Notes under the pieces: generated by a model | The model's input: only the letters and a program-made list of their open reading frames with translations | Told to the model about the DNA's origin: nothing | Database searches by the model: none | Made by a program: the position numbers and the translations under genes | Shown here: one piece after another, positions 17,173-58,890 of the stretch | How positions within the stretch are numbered: position 1 is the first letter of the stretch | Layout of the letters: every line of letters begins with the position of its first letter | Source of the DNA: Candidatus Edwardsbacteria bacterium RifOxyA12_full_54_48 | Lineage (GTDB): Bacteria > Edwardsbacteria > AC1 > EtOH8 | NCBI GenBank assembly: GCA_001777915.1 | Contig: MFFN01000005.1 | Location: 1-64,000 of the forward strand | Direction: 5' to 3' | Length of the DNA stretch: 64,000 nucleotides

Positions 17173-18231
17173 ATGCGAATATATCAAAGAAGGAAAGTAT
17201 GGTACATAGACTATATTTTCCAAGGCAAACGATTCAGAAAACGAATCGGATATTCAAAAAAGGTTGCTGAATTAACTCTGAAAGACATTGAAGTCAAGAT
17301 TGCAAGAAAGGAACATTTGGGAATTCAAGAAACAAATAAAATTCTTTTTGAAAAATATTCTGAGGAATATTTGAAGTATGCAAAAATAAATAAATCAGAG
17401 AAATCGTATACTTTAAACATCACTAATATTAAAGCGTTGAATTTATTCTTCAAGGGCAAATACCTTACAGATATCAAACCCCAGGATATTGAATCTTATA
17501 AGGAGGAGCGTAGCAAGAATTTAAAACCAGCTAGTGTTAACCGCGACCTTGCCTGCTTGCGTCATATGTTGAACAAGGCAATACAATGGGGATATTTATT
17601 GTCAAACCCGATGAAAGGCATTAAGCTGTTAAAGGAGCCCCCAGGGAGATTGCGTTTCTTGTCCGAGGAGGAAATCAAAAGATTACTACAAGAGTTGCCA
17701 GCAGGATCCAAACTTATCATACTGGTCGCGATGTACACCGGGATGAGGAGATCTGAAATCCTCAATCTCAATTGGAGCAATGTGGATTTGAAGAACAGGA
17801 TCCTTGTCGTCGAGAAAACCAAGACCAATGAGCGGAGAATCATCCCAATCAACGACAGTTTGTTTTCTCAGTTACAGGAATTATCCGCAAAGAAAAAGAG
17901 CGAAGTGGTGTTTGCCGAATGCAGGACTAATCTGCGAAGGAACTTCACGGATGCATTGAAAAGGGCAAACGTTAGGGATTTCAGATTTCACGACCTGCGC
18001 CATACCTTTGCATCTTATCTTGTGATGAGCGGTGCCAGCATAAAAGTGGTTCAGCAGCTTCTTGGCCATAAAGATTTAAAAATGACGATGAGGTATTCGC
18101 ATCTTTCAAATGAACACCTCCAGGAAGCTGTCGGAAAGTTAAATTACCTTAAACCAGAGAAACCAAAGCCACAAACAATAAGGGAAACCAGAGGACAATA
18201 CAAGGTCAGTCATGCAATGGTTCTGAGATAG
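17173..18231 (+). CDS. int: Tyrosine recombinase / integrase
   Basis: A protein of 352 residues. The N-terminal about 60 residues form an arm-binding-like domain (WYIDYIFQGKRFRKRIG), then a SAM-like core-binding domain, then the catalytic domain with the conserved Arg in YTGMRRSEILNLNW, HDLRHTFASYLV (H-x-x-R), LLGHKDLKMTMRYSHL (His, and the nucleophile Tyr). All catalytic residues are present, so it should be active. AAAGGAG precedes ATG 17173. The nearby tRNA-Lys 3' end, about 0.9 kb downstream, is the probable attachment site. Confidence 0.92.
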   Translation: MRIYQRRKVWYIDYIFQGKRFRKRIGYSKKVAELTLKDIEVKIARKEHLGIQETNKILFEKYSEEYLKYAKINKSEKSYTLNITNIKALNLFFKGKYLTDIKPQDIESYKEERSKNLKPASVNRDLACLRHMLNKAIQWGYLLSNPMKGIKLLKEPPGRLRFLSEEEIKRLLQELPAGSKLIILVAMYTGMRRSEILNLNWSNVDLKNRILVVEKTKTNERRIIPINDSLFSQLQELSAKKKSEVVFAECRTNLRRNFTDALKRANVRDFRFHDLRHTFASYLVMSGASIKVVQQLLGHKDLKMTMRYSHLSNEHLQEAVGKLNYLKPEKPKPQTIRETRGQYKVSHAMVLR

Positions 18232-18238
18232 CAATTAT

Positions 18239-18261
18239 AGTCCAGCTTTTTAAGCTGGGCT
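18239..18261 (+). terminator. Terminator-like hairpin after the integrase
   Basis: AGTCCAGCTT (18239-18248) pairs with AAGCTGGGCT (one G-T pair) around a short loop, eight bases after the integrase stop. It is followed by ATTTTACT, a weak T run. Confidence 0.6.
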
Positions 18262-18298
18262 ATTTTACTCACAACAACAATATTCTAAGGAGGATAAA

Positions 18299-18520
18299 AT
18301 GTTAATTTATCATTTATTTGCACTGGTCTTCGTCGCAGTGATGGCTAGAAAATATTCTGCCAAGGAGATCTTGCGGGCAGCAATTAAGGCGGGAATCATT
18401 GCATACATAGTCATGGGTCTGGTATTTGCTCAAGGAATTATCAGAAAAATAGCCTTCCGTTCAGTTATTCACCTGCAACAAAACAATAACAATTCCTACA
18501 ACAGTAACCCTCTTATCTAA
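18299..18520 (+). CDS. Small membrane protein
   Basis: A protein of 73 residues with two hydrophobic segments (LIYHLFALVFVAVMA and AGIIAYIVMGLVFA) around a basic loop, and an Asn-rich end. AAGGAGG lies eight bases before ATG 18299, a strong site. Function unknown; it lies between integrase and the HExxH protein in the element. Confidence 0.6.
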   Translation: MLIYHLFALVFVAVMARKYSAKEILRAAIKAGIIAYIVMGLVFAQGIIRKIAFRSVIHLQQNNNNSYNSNPLI

Positions 18521-18540
18521 ATTAAAGGAGGTACACCATA

Positions 18541-18972
18541 ATGAGTATCACGAATAAAATCTACATTCCCGAAGATGTACTCTATTTCCTTAAACTTGCT
18601 GGTTATGATAAATTTGTATATTCCAACATTGACGAAGTGGTTGTCCGGCCTGATCTTCCAGCTAATGGGGTAGCGTTTATTGGGAGCCGTCCCCGGCTTG
18701 TACACATTAAATTACGTGTCCCACCCGTTAATAATGCAGCATGGAGACAAGTAACTGCCATATCCAACGCAACAACTTATGTGCATGAAGCCGCACATCA
18801 TTACAGATGGGAGAATTATCATGATCGTGGAGAGTATGCACCACAATGTTATGAATGGCGGTTCTTACGGGCATTGCAACCTCTGATCGAATCTCAAGGC
18901 AAAATCCGAATGGTTATTCACCCCCGAACGTGGTGGGGTGGTTTCAAGGGGTGTAATTATTTAATCGTTTGA
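18541..18972 (+). CDS. Small HExxH metalloprotease-like protein
   Basis: A protein of 143 residues. It contains YVHEAAHHYRWE, an HExxH zinc motif, followed by a Tyr/Glu-containing helix (QCYEWRFLRAL) that could supply the third ligand of a gluzincin-type site. It has no signal peptide. AAAGGAGG precedes ATG 18541. It is the last gene before the right element end. In integrative elements such ImmA-like or WLM-like peptidases can cleave repressors to induce excision; here that is only an analogy, since no repressor partner is visible. Confidence 0.6.
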   Translation: MSITNKIYIPEDVLYFLKLAGYDKFVYSNIDEVVVRPDLPANGVAFIGSRPRLVHIKLRVPPVNNAAWRQVTAISNATTYVHEAAHHYRWENYHDRGEYAPQCYEWRFLRALQPLIESQGKIRMVIHPRTWWGGFKGCNYLIV

Positions 18973-19040
18973 CTGCTCGGGTTCCTGGGGGAACAATAAA
19001 TACCTTTTAGTGCATTTGAAATGGGCATATTCAGAAAGCT

Positions 19041-19061
19041 ATGGCACAAATATGGCACAAA
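19041..19061. repeat. Tandem ATGGCACAAA repeats, candidate integrase arm sites
   Basis: ATGGCACAAA occurs at 19041-19050 and again at 19052-19061, about 70 bases from the tRNA 3' end. Short direct repeats in this position commonly serve as arm-type binding sites of tyrosine integrases; the assignment is by position only. Confidence 0.5.
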
Positions 19062-19094
19062 CCATAAAAGAAGGCCCAAGTCAGTATAAAACAA

Positions 19095-19120
19095 AAAAGG
19101 CAACCTATTGGTTGCCTTTT
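19095..19120 (-). terminator. Terminator of tRNA-Lys (bidirectional hairpin)
   Basis: AAAAGGCAACC (19095-19105) pairs perfectly with GGTTGCCTTTT (19110-19120) around TATT. On the minus strand it is followed by a CCTTTTTTG run, so it ends the tRNA-Lys transcript; it may also stop element transcripts coming from the left. Confidence 0.75.
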
Positions 19121-19127
19121 AATTATC

Positions 19128-19203
<76 letters not shown>

Positions 19204-53476: not shown

Positions 53477-53974
53477 ATGAAAAAGCATGTCAAAATAATA
53501 TCAATCATGGTCCTGATGATAAGCGCAAAGTTCGCATACAGCCAAACCGTTGCCTTATTGACTCCCAGCGATGTCACTCGGACAGTTAACGTATCGGTGA
53601 GCGTAGCCAAAAAGGCCAGGCTCGAAGTTCTGAGCGCATCAAATATTTTAAATGTCGGCAACGAAGATAAAGCCAGAGGGTATGTTGATCTGCCGAAAGC
53701 TATTGTTCTCAAAGTGTGGTGCAATAGCATCGATGGCGCCAGGGTAATGGGCCAGATAGAACCTCAGAACAATGAGATAAAAGGTAAAATACTGTATAGG
53801 TTGTCCGGAGAAAAGAATTTCTGTGAAGCCACCGGGAGTCTGCACGATATATATGAAAGTTACAAGATCGAGAGAGGCTCTAAAGTTTCATTGGATATAA
53901 GATATCTATTGAGCGACAATACGCCGGCTGGCGACCACCAATTTGAAGCATCTTTTGTGGCCGAGCCCAAATGA
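53477..53974 (+). CDS. Exported pilin-like/beta-rich protein
   Basis: A protein of 165 residues with a signal peptide (MKKHVKIISIMVLMISAKFA). The mature part is beta-rich and alternating, with two Cys (VWCNSID and NFCEATG) that could form a disulfide. The overall pattern is like small fimbrial or spore-coat-U-type subunits, but no family was recognised. It precedes the chaperone-usher-like genes by about 0.8 kb, with a tRNA gene between them, so a joint role is only suggested. GGAG precedes ATG 53477. Confidence 0.6.
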   Translation: MKKHVKIISIMVLMISAKFAYSQTVALLTPSDVTRTVNVSVSVAKKARLEVLSASNILNVGNEDKARGYVDLPKAIVLKVWCNSIDGARVMGQIEPQNNEIKGKILYRLSGEKNFCEATGSLHDIYESYKIERGSKVSLDIRYLLSDNTPAGDHQFEASFVAEPK

Positions 53975-54164: not shown

Positions 54165-54183
54165 GGGTGATCAGCTCAGCTTG
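54165..54183 (+). pseudogene. tRNA-Val 5' fragment
   Basis: GGGTGATCAGCTCAGCTTG (54165-54183) matches the first 19 bases of tRNA-Val (54229 on) at 17 of 19 positions and then diverges. It is a partial duplicate 64 bases upstream of the intact gene. Confidence 0.55.
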
Positions 54184-54228: not shown

Positions 54229-54306
54229 GGGCGATTAGCTCAGCTTGGTTAGAGCGCCTGCTTTACACGCAGGAGGTCGGGGGTTCGATCCCCTCATCGC
54301 CCACCA
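54229..54306 (+). tRNA. tRNA-Val (anticodon TAC)
   Basis: A complete cloverleaf: acceptor GGGCGAT (54229-54235) with ATCGCCC, D-arm TAGCTCAGCTTGGTTAGAGC, anticodon loop TTTACAC (anticodon TAC, valine), T-arm GGGGTTCGATCCCC, and an encoded ACCA (54303-54306). The transcript would read GTA and related Val codons. Confidence 0.95.
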
Positions 54307-54739: not shown

Positions 54740-55249
54740 ATGAAGAAACTTTTGCTTGCCAGCTTGGTGATCGCTCTGTTTGCCGGGATGGCACTGGCCC
54801 AGCCTGCGGACGAAACAGCCACCGTGGATGTTCAGGTAACTGTCAATGGTATTTGGTCAATTACGCTGGATGTGGCGGCAATTGACTTTGGCCTGTTGGA
54901 GCCGGGCGATATTGCAACGCCGGCAGATGTGGTTGCAACCGTAAGGTCGAATCAAAAGATACCCTGGGGTTTGCAGCTCAACAAGGATCGTGACCTGACC
55001 AATGATGTAGCCCTGGAATCGATCCCGTCGGCTAACTTCACCTATGCCGGAGCAGGTGGAGCCGGTACCTGGGTCAATGGTGAGTTTTCCTTAGCACCCG
55101 CCACGGCCTACACGTCAGCAACGCCTGCGGAAGACAAGATTGCGGCGGGGCTTGCATTAACAACCACCCTGAGCCTAACCATCCCTGCACCTGCGGCTGC
55201 CGGTCTGTACACCAACGTCATCACCTATACTTTGACCGCCACCCCGTAA
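54740..55249 (+). CDS. Pilin-like secreted beta-protein
   Basis: A protein of 169 residues with a signal peptide (MKKLLLASLVIALFAGMALA). The mature part is beta-rich: WSITLDVAAIDFGLLEPGDI, VATVRSNQKIPWGLQL and a Thr/Ala/Pro-rich end. The arrangement resembles CsuA/B- or DUF4402-like pilin folds. It lies just upstream of the PapD-like chaperone and usher-like barrel, so it is the obvious secreted subunit. AAGGAGG gives a very strong start at ATG 54740, as expected of an abundant product; the in-frame ATG 54674 is unlikely. Confidence 0.65.
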   Translation: MKKLLLASLVIALFAGMALAQPADETATVDVQVTVNGIWSITLDVAAIDFGLLEPGDIATPADVVATVRSNQKIPWGLQLNKDRDLTNDVALESIPSANFTYAGAGGAGTWVNGEFSLAPATAYTSATPAEDKIAAGLALTTTLSLTIPAPAAAGLYTNVITYTLTATP

Positions 55250-55266
55250 GCTGGCATTTCAACAAG

Positions 55267-55298
55267 GCGGGGCATCACTTATTTAAGGGGTGCCCCGC
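55267..55298 (+). terminator. Attenuator-like hairpin between pilin and chaperone
   Basis: GCGGGGCA (55267-55274) pairs with TGCCCCGC (55291-55298), followed by TTTTGACTTT. Placed after the pilin gene, it may let the subunit be made in excess of the chaperone and barrel. Confidence 0.7.
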
Positions 55299-55328
55299 TT
55301 TTGACTTTAATTTTAGAGCCCGATCGTG

Positions 55329-56402
55329 ATGAAAAATATCGTTGCAACAACACTGATTACCATTTTATCAACAGCCTTTGCCTTGGGCCAGGGGGCGCTT
55401 TCCATAAACGTTTGGCCGTCCAGGGTGGACATTAGCGTTGTGCCGGGTGAGAGCCGGACCGGAGTTATCAGCGTGGATAACAAGGGGAAGGAAAAAACCC
55501 AGGTATTATGTTATATTACCGATGTCGGCATGGATATATACGGCGAGCTTCTTTTTCCCGAGGGAGGAACTCTGGCCACATCGTGTGAATCCTGGTTTTT
55601 GGTCAACCCGGAAAATTTCTTTCTTTCTCAAGGCACCAACCAGAAGATCCGTTATACTTTAAAGGTTCCGGACAATGCCTCGGGAACCTATCTGGCATCA
55701 ATTTTTTTTCATACCAAACCTCAGGATGGGGCCAAGAACAGCGGCAGCCGTTTATCAGTCAGGGTTGGCACCCTGTTCGTCATCAATGTCACCGGCACCG
55801 GGCACAAGGATGGGGAGTTAAGCTCGCTATCATTGCACAATACGGTTAAAGCCACCACCGCCCAGGTAGAACTGGGGGTTTTAAATAAAGGAAACGTTCT
55901 GATCCGCCCCAGGGGTACGGTGGAAATAAAAACCAATGATGGCTGGACGGTCGATAAATTGGCTTTCAATGAGGATAATCAGGCGGTTTTGCCAAAATCC
56001 GAGCGGGTCTTTAGGATCCCGCTGGCCAACATAAAACCCGGCAGCTATAACCTGATTGCCATGGTGGATTACGGAGGAGCCGAGATTTTATCCGGAGAGA
56101 CCATGGTCAATCTGGTGGCGACAGAAGTCCCCCGGCACGACTGGCCGATACCGCAGTCGAAAAGCCCCATGAAAATCTCCGGCAAAGCGGCCAAGCCGAT
56201 GGAGCCGGCGGTCAAGCTTTCCCCCGAGGAGATAAAAAGCCTCTTTAGTCTGGCCACCAAGCAATATACGACGGGAGATTATCAATCTTCTTTTTCCACC
56301 TGGCAGAAACTTTTAAAAGCCGACCCCGGAAATACCACCGCCAGAAAGAACCTGGAACGGACCAAAGCCAAACTGGACGCCTTGAAAAAAATAAAAGGTT
56401 AG
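55329..56402 (+). CDS. PapD-like chaperone fused to a TPR module
   Basis: A protein of 357 residues. A signal peptide (NIVATTLITILSTAFALG) is followed by a PapD-like Ig domain (about 22-130: INVWPSRVDISVVPGESRTG, FLSQGTNQKIRYTLKVP) and a second Ig domain to about 255 (GSYNLIAMVDYGG). From about residue 296 is a TPR: SPEEIKSLFSLATKQYTTGD and a basic end. The same TPR closes the next protein. It probably escorts the pilin-like subunit in the periplasm. The next gene begins with no gap. ATG 55329 is chosen over GTG 55326. Confidence 0.7.
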   Translation: MKNIVATTLITILSTAFALGQGALSINVWPSRVDISVVPGESRTGVISVDNKGKEKTQVLCYITDVGMDIYGELLFPEGGTLATSCESWFLVNPENFFLSQGTNQKIRYTLKVPDNASGTYLASIFFHTKPQDGAKNSGSRLSVRVGTLFVINVTGTGHKDGELSSLSLHNTVKATTAQVELGVLNKGNVLIRPRGTVEIKTNDGWTVDKLAFNEDNQAVLPKSERVFRIPLANIKPGSYNLIAMVDYGGAEILSGETMVNLVATEVPRHDWPIPQSKSPMKISGKAAKPMEPAVKLSPEEIKSLFSLATKQYTTGDYQSSFSTWQKLLKADPGNTTARKNLERTKAKLDALKKIKG

Positions 56403-58844
56403 ATGCGCAACTTTCTTAAAATCACATTTATACTGCTGATATCCGGCCCGACCCTGACTTGGGCTGCGGAGCAGCTTTATTTTACCTATGGTTTTGAGGA
56501 GGGCAATAGTTTGGTCGGGCAATACTACGGTCAGCAGGAATACCGCCATACCCTGAAAAGTGCTCTTGAAAAGAAAATGGACAATTTTAAGCTTTTGTCC
56601 GAATTCTCAATGTACTACAGCAGCCTGGAGCAGATTCACCTTCAAACCGTCAGGCTGGCATTCAACCAGATGTCTTTCGGCCACAGCCTGCTCAGTGTAG
56701 GCTTGGGGGATAACAACCCCAACCTGCCCTACAATGCCGGTCTCTGGAACAACCGCATACGGGGCGCCAGTGCTGATTATCAGTATGATAATTTAACTGC
56801 CGGGGTATTCGGGGGAACCCCCTCGGACCTTTATCGGGAAAGCGCTTCGTTAAGCAGCCGCAATGTGCTGGGTTCATACTTGGGTTATAAACCGGCCGCT
56901 TGGTTTTCCGAAAAGATATTCCTCTATAAGGAATCCAGCAGCCTGCCTGCCGACTCCCTTTACCGGAGGGCAACCGGGTTTGGCCAGCAGATGGATATAA
57001 CGATGTCCCAGGGCTTAAGTATGATGATGGCTACGGCCTGGAAGAAACGCCAAGAGGAGAGGACCGGAGTGATCATCTCCCGCTCGGCTCCCTGGGTTTC
57101 TGCCAACATCGCCTGGACTGCCAAAAAATACAGTTTCTCGGCCGGCCTGGACTTTCTGGGAGCCAATTTCCGTCCCCTACAGACCAAGAATTATTACGGC
57201 CCCAGGTTCTACGCCAGCTGGAGGCCGAACGAGATAATAAGAATGGACGGCAGATTTACTAACTACAATGCCGACGGCGATACCCTCTATCCCATGATCA
57301 CCAACAGCTGGGGGGCGGGCTCCAGTGTCAAATTATCAAACCTTCCCTCTCTGAAGGTCAGCTATACCAGCCGAGATAACAAAGTTAGCTGGGGCGGGCC
57401 CAATGCCAGGCGGTATGTTTCCGATGGACAAACGATGGAATTGAGCCAAAAGTTTAACCAATTGGAAATGAAATTCAAATACCAGGTTGAAAACCGGGAA
57501 GAGAAAATAGATCAGTCAATGGACGCCTCCCGGCAGCTGTGGATGGTAAAACCACAGTACCGGTCGCAGCTGGCCACCTTCTGGCTGAGCGGGGAATTTG
57601 ACCGGTGGAGCGATAACCGGAGGACAACCTCCGGATATTACAATCGCTACCGGGCTGGAACCAATGCCGGGCTATGGAGCGGCAGCCGGGCCATTGTCGA
57701 GCTGGGATTCAATCAGCGGGTCGACCAACGCGACAGGAATAATACAAGCATGGTTGCCAGCCTGAATTTGAAATTCAACCTTTCGAAAAAATACTTGCTG
57801 GACCTCTCCTGGTGGAACGAGAACAATATCGCCCAGGATACCGGCTTCTTCTACCTGCGCGACAGGTCGCGGCTGGGCCTTTTCGTCACCAGAAGGATCG
57901 ACATCTCCGGCAACGATCTGGAGGGGTTGGTGTTTCTGGACGCCAACAAGAATGGCTTTCAGGACGCCGGGGAATTCGGATTGCCCGGGATAATCTTGAA
58001 TCTTTCCAACGGCAGAAAGACCATCACCGATGCCAGGGGAAAATACTCCTTCACCAATATCAACAGCAGCAACCCAACCGTTAAAATAGACATGGCAAGC
58101 CTTTCGGCCGAATATAACATCATCGGCGCCGGAGAGAAGCAGGCTTCCCTGGGGGGCTGGCGGTCCACCCTGGTCAATTTTACCGTTTCGGCCCTGGGTG
58201 GGATCAAAGGGCGGGTATTTGTGGATAACAACAATAACGGGGTCTTTGACGGAGACGATTACGGAATGTCCGGGGTTATGGTCATAATACAGCCCTCCAA
58301 CACTGCCGCAATTTCCAACGGTGGCGGCATGTTCCGCATCACCAATGCTCCCACCGGCCAGCAGACACTGAACATTGATCTCAACAGTATTCCACCGGAT
58401 TACGAGCTAAAAAGCCAGCCTTCCAGATCGATAAACATCAAACAGGGGGAGATATCCAACCACCTGGAATTTGCCGTGGTAAAAAAGATCCGTCCGGTAA
58501 AGAAAGTGGTGTTCGGCGGTGTGAGCACGGTCAAGATAAATACTTCTCCAAGAGCAGAAGCGGCACCCAGGTCCGCTGGAAGCGAAAAACAAGCAGCCAG
58601 GGCCCCAAAACAGCAGGATAGAGTTACCATTAAAGCCAAAGAACCACCACCGTCCAAGCTGTCAGCCACTGAAATTGATGCCCTGTATAAGGAAGGTACG
58701 AAGCTATACAGCTCCGGGGATTATCAGGGGGCCTTAAAGATCTGGCAGAAAATATTGGCGGCAGATCCCGGACACAGCCAGGCAAAAAGAAATCTGGAAA
58801 AAACCCGACAAAAATTGGATGCCTTGAAAAAAGCCAAGGGATAA
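56403..58844 (+). CDS. Usher-like outer-membrane barrel with SdrD-like domains and TPR
   Basis: A protein of 813 residues. Signal peptide (LTWAAEQ cleavage region), a barrel of about 22-500 with many alternating Tyr/Phe strands, then two SdrD/carboxypeptidase-regulatory-like domains beginning GLVFLDANKNGFQDAGE (about residue 507) and GRVFVDNNNNGVFDGDDYG (about 602), a Ala/Lys/Pro linker and a TPR from about 751 (SATEIDALYKEGTKLYSSGD) that is nearly the same as the chaperone TPR. It resembles the outer-membrane usher of an alternative chaperone-usher pathway but has no recognised PapC/FimD signature. It directly follows the chaperone gene. Confidence 0.65.
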   Translation: MRNFLKITFILLISGPTLTWAAEQLYFTYGFEEGNSLVGQYYGQQEYRHTLKSALEKKMDNFKLLSEFSMYYSSLEQIHLQTVRLAFNQMSFGHSLLSVGLGDNNPNLPYNAGLWNNRIRGASADYQYDNLTAGVFGGTPSDLYRESASLSSRNVLGSYLGYKPAAWFSEKIFLYKESSSLPADSLYRRATGFGQQMDITMSQGLSMMMATAWKKRQEERTGVIISRSAPWVSANIAWTAKKYSFSAGLDFLGANFRPLQTKNYYGPRFYASWRPNEIIRMDGRFTNYNADGDTLYPMITNSWGAGSSVKLSNLPSLKVSYTSRDNKVSWGGPNARRYVSDGQTMELSQKFNQLEMKFKYQVENREEKIDQSMDASRQLWMVKPQYRSQLATFWLSGEFDRWSDNRRTTSGYYNRYRAGTNAGLWSGSRAIVELGFNQRVDQRDRNNTSMVASLNLKFNLSKKYLLDLSWWNENNIAQDTGFFYLRDRSRLGLFVTRRIDISGNDLEGLVFLDANKNGFQDAGEFGLPGIILNLSNGRKTITDARGKYSFTNINSSNPTVKIDMASLSAEYNIIGAGEKQASLGGWRSTLVNFTVSALGGIKGRVFVDNNNNGVFDGDDYGMSGVMVIIQPSNTAAISNGGGMFRITNAPTGQQTLNIDLNSIPPDYELKSQPSRSINIKQGEISNHLEFAVVKKIRPVKKVVFGGVSTVKINTSPRAEAAPRSAGSEKQAARAPKQQDRVTIKAKEPPPSKLSATEIDALYKEGTKLYSSGDYQGALKIWQKILAADPGHSQAKRNLEKTRQKLDALKKAKG

Positions 58845-58858
58845 AATCAAAAATAGAG

Positions 58859-58890
58859 AAAGCGGCTCTATCTGGAGATAGAGCCGCTTT
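58859..58890 (+). terminator. Terminator of the chaperone-usher-like operon
   Basis: AAAGCGGCTCTATCT (58859-58873) pairs perfectly with AGATAGAGCCGCTTT (58876-58890), with TTTT following. A 15-base-pair stem, 15 bases after the stop. Confidence 0.9.

Follow-up and report, generated by a model that had tools for sequence, protein, structure and literature searches.

In classical ushers, an N-terminal domain receives the chaperone-subunit complex, and recruitment through this domain is a central step of the known chaperone-usher pili. A three-gene locus at positions 54740–58844 of the window (the whole 64,000-nucleotide stretch analysed, from contig MFFN01000005.1 of Candidatus Edwardsbacteria bacterium RifOxyA12_full_54_48) raises the question of how a chaperone could be brought to an usher-like barrel in which no such domain is found, and what the tetratricopeptide repeat (TPR) tails carried by both proteins may contribute. 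The analysis covered the genome carrying the window (G000, 2.74 Mb), the family genomes (n = 10) and a wider search of 290 genomes. We judge the chances to be about even that the locus encodes a deep-branching chaperone-usher-type system in which TPR tails recruit the chaperone to its usher.

A preliminary description, made from the sequence alone, had proposed an operon for a pilin-like protein, a PapD-like chaperone and a barrel with two SdrD-like domains, and all three genes were confirmed. They lie on the forward strand in the order pilin-like (169 residues; 54740–55249), chaperone-like (357 residues; 55329–56402) and barrel protein (813 residues; 56403–58844). The ATG of the barrel gene (56403) directly abuts the stop codon of the chaperone gene, for which a GTG at 55326 provides an alternative start.

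An usher-like barrel, a chaperone and their tails

The barrel protein is assigned as an usher-like outer-membrane protein on the basis of an SdrD_B match, an AlphaFold model, Foldseek searches and a profile of its relatives. In the model, which has a predicted local distance difference test score (pLDDT) of 79, a 26-strand barrel (residues 23–502; 56469–57908) is followed by two domains of the SdrD_B or carboxypeptidase-regulatory type (residues 503–598 and 599–698; 57909–58496), a low-confidence linker with pLDDT below 50 (residues 699–752; 58497–58658) and the tail (residues 753–813; 58659–58841). SdrD_B was found in two copies (E 1e-16). When the model was compared with the PDB using Foldseek, ranks 1 to 17 were all FimD or PapC, the best with E 3e-17 over the whole chain, and the first non-usher match followed at E 9e-7. 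The profile of the Edwardsbacteria barrels alone gave no significant match to the E. coli ushers. A profile of 24 related barrels matched them at 88.8% (E 2.5e-6), with cross-control comparisons yielding 0–14%, and since this alignment runs colinearly from mid-barrel through both usher C-terminal domains (CTDs), the SdrD_B domains occupy the positions of CTD1 and CTD2. Together, fold and wider-group profile support a relationship of the barrel to ushers that is only distant. The preliminary description had allowed that the barrel might belong to another known family; none emerged.

The chaperone carries a signal peptide, two immunoglobulin (Ig) domains (residues ~22–262), a linker and the TPR tail, and the two Ig domains are also seen in its AlphaFold model (pLDDT 84). 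Its best match among solved structures was WxLIP of Enterococcus faecium (9i1y and 9i25; E ~2e-12 by Foldseek), followed by CfaA, CsuC, DraB, FimC and PapD. A profile combining tailed and tail-less relatives retrieved WxLIP from the PDB at E 1e-8, compared with E 1e-3 for the Edwardsbacteria sequences alone. Using hhalign, the chaperone matched ten E. coli K-12 chaperones at 94.5% (E 7e-8) across both Ig domains, and cross-controls against ushers and pilins gave 0.6–3%. The gathering score of DUF916 (WxLIP_PGBD) was not reached, with six of 20 relatives matching the model at best E 4e-5. Related chaperones in two genomes (G139 and G184), each adjoining a barrel of the same kind, pass the PapD_N cut-off that the window chaperone misses and, given this and the matches to both WxLIP and the E. 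coli chaperones, the protein is a member of the PapD/WxLIP superfamily outside its described core families. Profile matches of the chaperone to "Pizza" proteins in the PDB were rejected as a repeat artefact, their single-stretch E-values being above 30.

The two tails are 61 residues long and about 55% identical, and they are defined both by profile and in the AlphaFold models as a single TPR followed by one long C-terminal helix. In the chaperone (residues 297–357; 56217–56399) the helices span residues 299–315, 318–331 and 336–356, and in the barrel protein residues 755–771, 774–787 and 792–811. A family tail profile scored 118 and 112 bits on the chaperone and barrel protein, respectively, and the only further strong tails in G000 (about 91 bits each) are on two adjacent barrel proteins, P0001 and P0002, which are unrelated to the usher-like barrel. 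The next-best TPR in the genome scored 28 bits, and chance similarity of two TPRs was rejected because the tails score far above all others. The earlier claim that the two proteins end in nearly the same 60-residue TPR thus holds for the sharing of the tail and overstates the degree of identity. Paired TPR-ending chaperones and barrels, which the preliminary description suggested looking for elsewhere and the conservation of which it left in question, occur in all ten family genomes, each retaining both tails. No tailed chaperone was found among the remaining genomes of the 290 searched.

Some family members show departures from this arrangement. In G006 (L069:7793-12201), and also in G004, G007 and G008, an extra, tail-less chaperone gene precedes the barrel gene, and the gene for the tailed chaperone follows it. 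The adjacent P0001/P0002 barrel pair (L061:6846-10232, contig C4 of G000) carries two CarboxypepD_reg domains on each protein and its own class of TPR tail, and relatives of the pair are present in the other family genomes. C-terminal TPRs also occur in other phyla on PorV-like barrels and on a PilQ-like secretin (L142:2386-4044 in G215), whose TPR resembles the family tail.

The wider search places the locus among a larger group. The chaperone profile matched 46 of the 290 genomes and, at 43 loci outside the family, 24 barrels of this type adjoin the chaperone, often together with small pilin-like genes; none of the chaperones at these 43 loci has a tail. Tail-less chaperone/barrel pairs are present in many phyla and this gene pairing, together with the usher fold matches and the profile link to E. 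coli chaperones, bears out the original chaperone-usher-like interpretation. The tail-less barrels differ consistently at their N-terminal side. Their first CTD starts at residues 580–821 (24 of 24) versus 483–513 in Edwardsbacteria, and all 24 examined carry 70–310 extra residues ahead of the CTDs. The N-terminal domains of the scanned relatives vary, including Cu_amine_oxidN1, pilus-formation N-terminal and NEW3/Ig-like domains, and a plug-like stretch is present in some (weakly in G036). The window barrel has no usher N-terminal domain, starting directly after the signal peptide, and its model shows no insert of plug size. Edwardsbacteria is the lineage that is without the usher N-terminal part and with tails and, given the receiving role of that domain in classical ushers, replacement by the tails is a natural inference.

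Much of this wider family of chaperones and SdrD-type barrels looks to be unannotated. On a Deinococcus plasmid, for example, the chaperone is labelled "hypothetical protein" and a gene two positions further "carboxypeptidase-like regulatory domain-containing protein". In an unrelated lineage, G247 (L205:3703-7262), a TPR is located at the N terminus of the usher-like protein and a separate TPR protein of 165 residues is encoded adjacently.

Proposed tail-mediated recruitment and its alternatives

In the mechanism that we propose, the two-Ig-domain chaperone would hold pilin-like subunits in the periplasm, and the barrel, together with the CTD-like domain pair, would provide an outer-membrane platform for their assembly and export. 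The Edwardsbacteria usher would have shed the periplasmic N-terminal part that related barrels possess, and the matching TPR tails would recruit the chaperone, possibly with bound pilin, to the usher, either by direct tail-tail contact or through one shared partner. Docking of chaperone and usher by their tails, whether direct or indirect, seems to us evenly poised between being correct and incorrect; the idea is plausible, and indirect support comes from the missing N-terminal part of the usher, the exceptional conservation of the tail and the N-terminal TPR on the G247 usher. More tentative is a stricter formulation, in which a heterotypic pair of tails would recruit in place of the usher N-terminal domain and the chaperones would join those of chaperone-usher and WxLIP systems in an old subunit-complementing superfamily.

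Conservation of the tail was assessed by comparison with the window proteins. For the G006 usher, identity is 16% in the barrel, 26–30% in the two CTDs and 51% in the tail, and for the G009b usher the corresponding values are 21%, 45–51% and 75%, making the tail the best-conserved segment of the usher-like protein. For the chaperones of the distant genomes (G005 to G009), tails are 46–57% identical, Ig domains 28–55% and linkers 18–43%. Because tail identity exceeds that of the barrel, CTDs and linker, and mostly that of the Ig domains, the tail is, judged from these sequence comparisons, under strong constraint.

The history of the tails appears more complex than simple descent with each protein. 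Their treatment as independent ancestral features of the two proteins was rejected by the approximately unbiased test, in which a chaperone-tail clade (p 0.02) and an usher-tail clade (p 0.005) both failed, with the caution that test and tree rest on 66 columns only. In G006 and G008 the gene order is reversed, the barrel gene preceding the chaperone gene; here, the tail on the barrel clusters with those on chaperones of the window's genus (support 98/98), and the tail on the chaperone with those on ushers of that genus (98/85). As the Ig domains place all tailed chaperones in one clade (97/96), this looks like an exchange of tails between chaperone and usher. The exchanged types would be consistent with a system that requires both kinds of tail, one of each, as far as 66 columns allow.

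Several results weigh against tail-dependent chaperone-usher assembly. The template modelling (TM) scores of the usher matches are low, at about 0.35 and, for the translocation domain taken alone and normalised by target length, up to 0.48, and the usher match is, therefore, counted as distant. Moreover, no Pfam Usher (PF00577) match was obtained in 17 genomes at E-values up to 10, the window chaperone falls below the Pfam PapD_N gathering score, a related tail is carried by the unrelated barrel pair in G000, and the phylogeny depends on few columns. Finally, all six tails checked, including those of the barrel pair, have a net charge of +6 in their last 20 residues, which does not favour direct contact via the last helix; a common anionic partner would explain this charge no less well than direct pairing would. 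Given the equal charge and the presence of the tail on the unrelated barrel pair, the tails may instead share a third partner.

Such a partner is central to the alternative that survives best, namely that the tail is a lineage-specific anchor attaching outer-membrane and periplasmic proteins to an envelope protein, peptidoglycan or another anionic surface, with no docking between chaperone and usher. This explanation, which we consider possible and somewhat doubtful, accommodates the uniform charge of the tails, the tailed CarboxypepD_reg barrels with their relatives in the family, and the C-terminal TPRs of PorV-like barrels and the PilQ-like secretin in other phyla. A general anchor is less easily reconciled with the restriction of tails in G000 to just two gene pairs, each of adjacent genes, with the separation of the barrel-pair tails from those of chaperone and usher as a clade of their own (98/99), or with the coincidence of tail gain and loss of the usher N-terminal part.

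The prominence of WxLIP among the chaperone matches, where it ranks first by both fold (E 2e-12) and profile (E 1e-8), raises another possibility, that the locus corresponds, in a diderm, to the WxL cluster of Firmicutes (DUF916-DUF3324). A WxLIP-like protein would then stabilise a WxL-like surface protein at the cell surface, and the barrel would act as a carrier rather than as an usher that assembles pili. EfmWxLIP1 is the closest solved relative of the window chaperone, and a hairpin of WxLIP is predicted to complete the WxL beta sandwich (PMC10599100). However, the published description of WxLIP includes a membrane helix at the C terminus (PMC10599100), whereas the window chaperone ends in a TPR, has no such helix and belongs to a diderm-type system paired with a barrel. 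That barrel is usher-like, the chaperone profile also matches the PapD family, and the WxL model was not matched by the window pilin and was touched by only one of 14 pilin-like proteins (E 0.09). We consider this correspondence unlikely. Least likely of all is that recombination or domain shuffling left both proteins with a passive tail that has no role in assembly: TPRs are common and recombination probably did happen, since tails appear to have been swapped between genes, but both proteins are tailed in ten of ten genomes, and the tails change at a slower pace than all other parts of the usher, and in most cases than the chaperone Ig domains, with the linkers diverging freely.

Relation to known systems

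Tail-mediated recruitment would set the locus apart from the described chaperone-usher pathways, classical (Fim and Pap), archaic (Csu) and alternative (CFA/I and ECP), with which it shares the joint encoding of a small secreted subunit, a two-Ig-domain chaperone and a barrel, the two C-terminal periplasmic domains of the barrel, and the fold and profile links. Unlike those systems, the window proteins miss the PapD_N and Usher models, the modelled barrel lacks an N-terminal domain and a plug, the CTDs are of the SdrD_B type, TPR tails are present on chaperone and usher, and the model has 26 strands, compared with 24 in the FimD and PapC barrels. Diversity within the known pathways has been documented: classical and archaic chaperones do not use the same residues to bind the carboxylate of the subunit, and archaic systems have been recorded in Cyanobacteria and Deinococcus-Thermus (PMC4654587).

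Barrels followed by TPRs, including PorV-like proteins and those combining barrel, CarboxypepD_reg and TPR, resemble the usher-like protein in having a C-terminal TPR, the last repeat of which is similar to the tail, but no chaperone partner or pilin was seen with them and their tails fall in a different clade. The preliminary description knew of no chaperone-usher pathway with a TPR, and a literature search, with subscription journals outside its coverage, likewise turned up none. What we infer to be new here is a chaperone-usher-like system with matching tails on both partners, in place of the usher N-terminal domain. If true, the recruitment step would be exchangeable, rather like a plug-in, and the locus would offer a simple two-tail system for testing it.

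The WxLIP match also suggests a link between diderm pilus chaperones and a Gram-positive surface system. G068, a genome of 0.8 Mb, possibly connects WxL clusters with the chaperone/barrel family: pilin-like genes occur in it with two WxLIP-like proteins ending in a hydrophobic stretch (L076), and no barrel was found there.

Pilin-like genes and neighbouring features

The pilin-like subunit consists of a signal peptide and one small beta domain ending in ..AGLYTNVITYTLTATP. It is conserved in g1 and in G009, and relatives adjoin chaperones elsewhere. Comparison by hhalign with E. coli pilins was uninformative because the score came mainly from the signal peptide. Between the pilin and chaperone genes lies a conserved hairpin with a short stretch of U residues after it (55265–55300, forward strand; -25.8 kcal/mol, z -5), and the same hairpin is found in G001, G002 and G003. 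Hairpin and U run constitute a possible attenuator that would favour expression of pilin over chaperone and usher. Just 3' of the barrel gene, an inverted repeat (58859–58890) resembles a terminator and was scored as such on the minus strand.

A second small secreted pilin-like protein, of 165 residues, is encoded upstream on the forward strand (53477–53974). It lies outside the transcription unit, with a tRNA-Val gene (54229–54306) standing between it and the operon, and its membership of the system is uncertain; it aligns weakly with the 169-residue pilin and is kept in three genomes of the same genus (L062, L063 and L064). The 19 nucleotides at the 5' end of this tRNA-Val gene (54229–54247) recur imperfectly (89%) 64 nucleotides upstream, at 54165–54183, and this copy is perhaps an insertion remnant or a decayed tRNA. 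Further to the left, an integrase-like gene (17173–19203) close to a tRNA-Lys gene suggests that an integrated element makes up the left part of the window.

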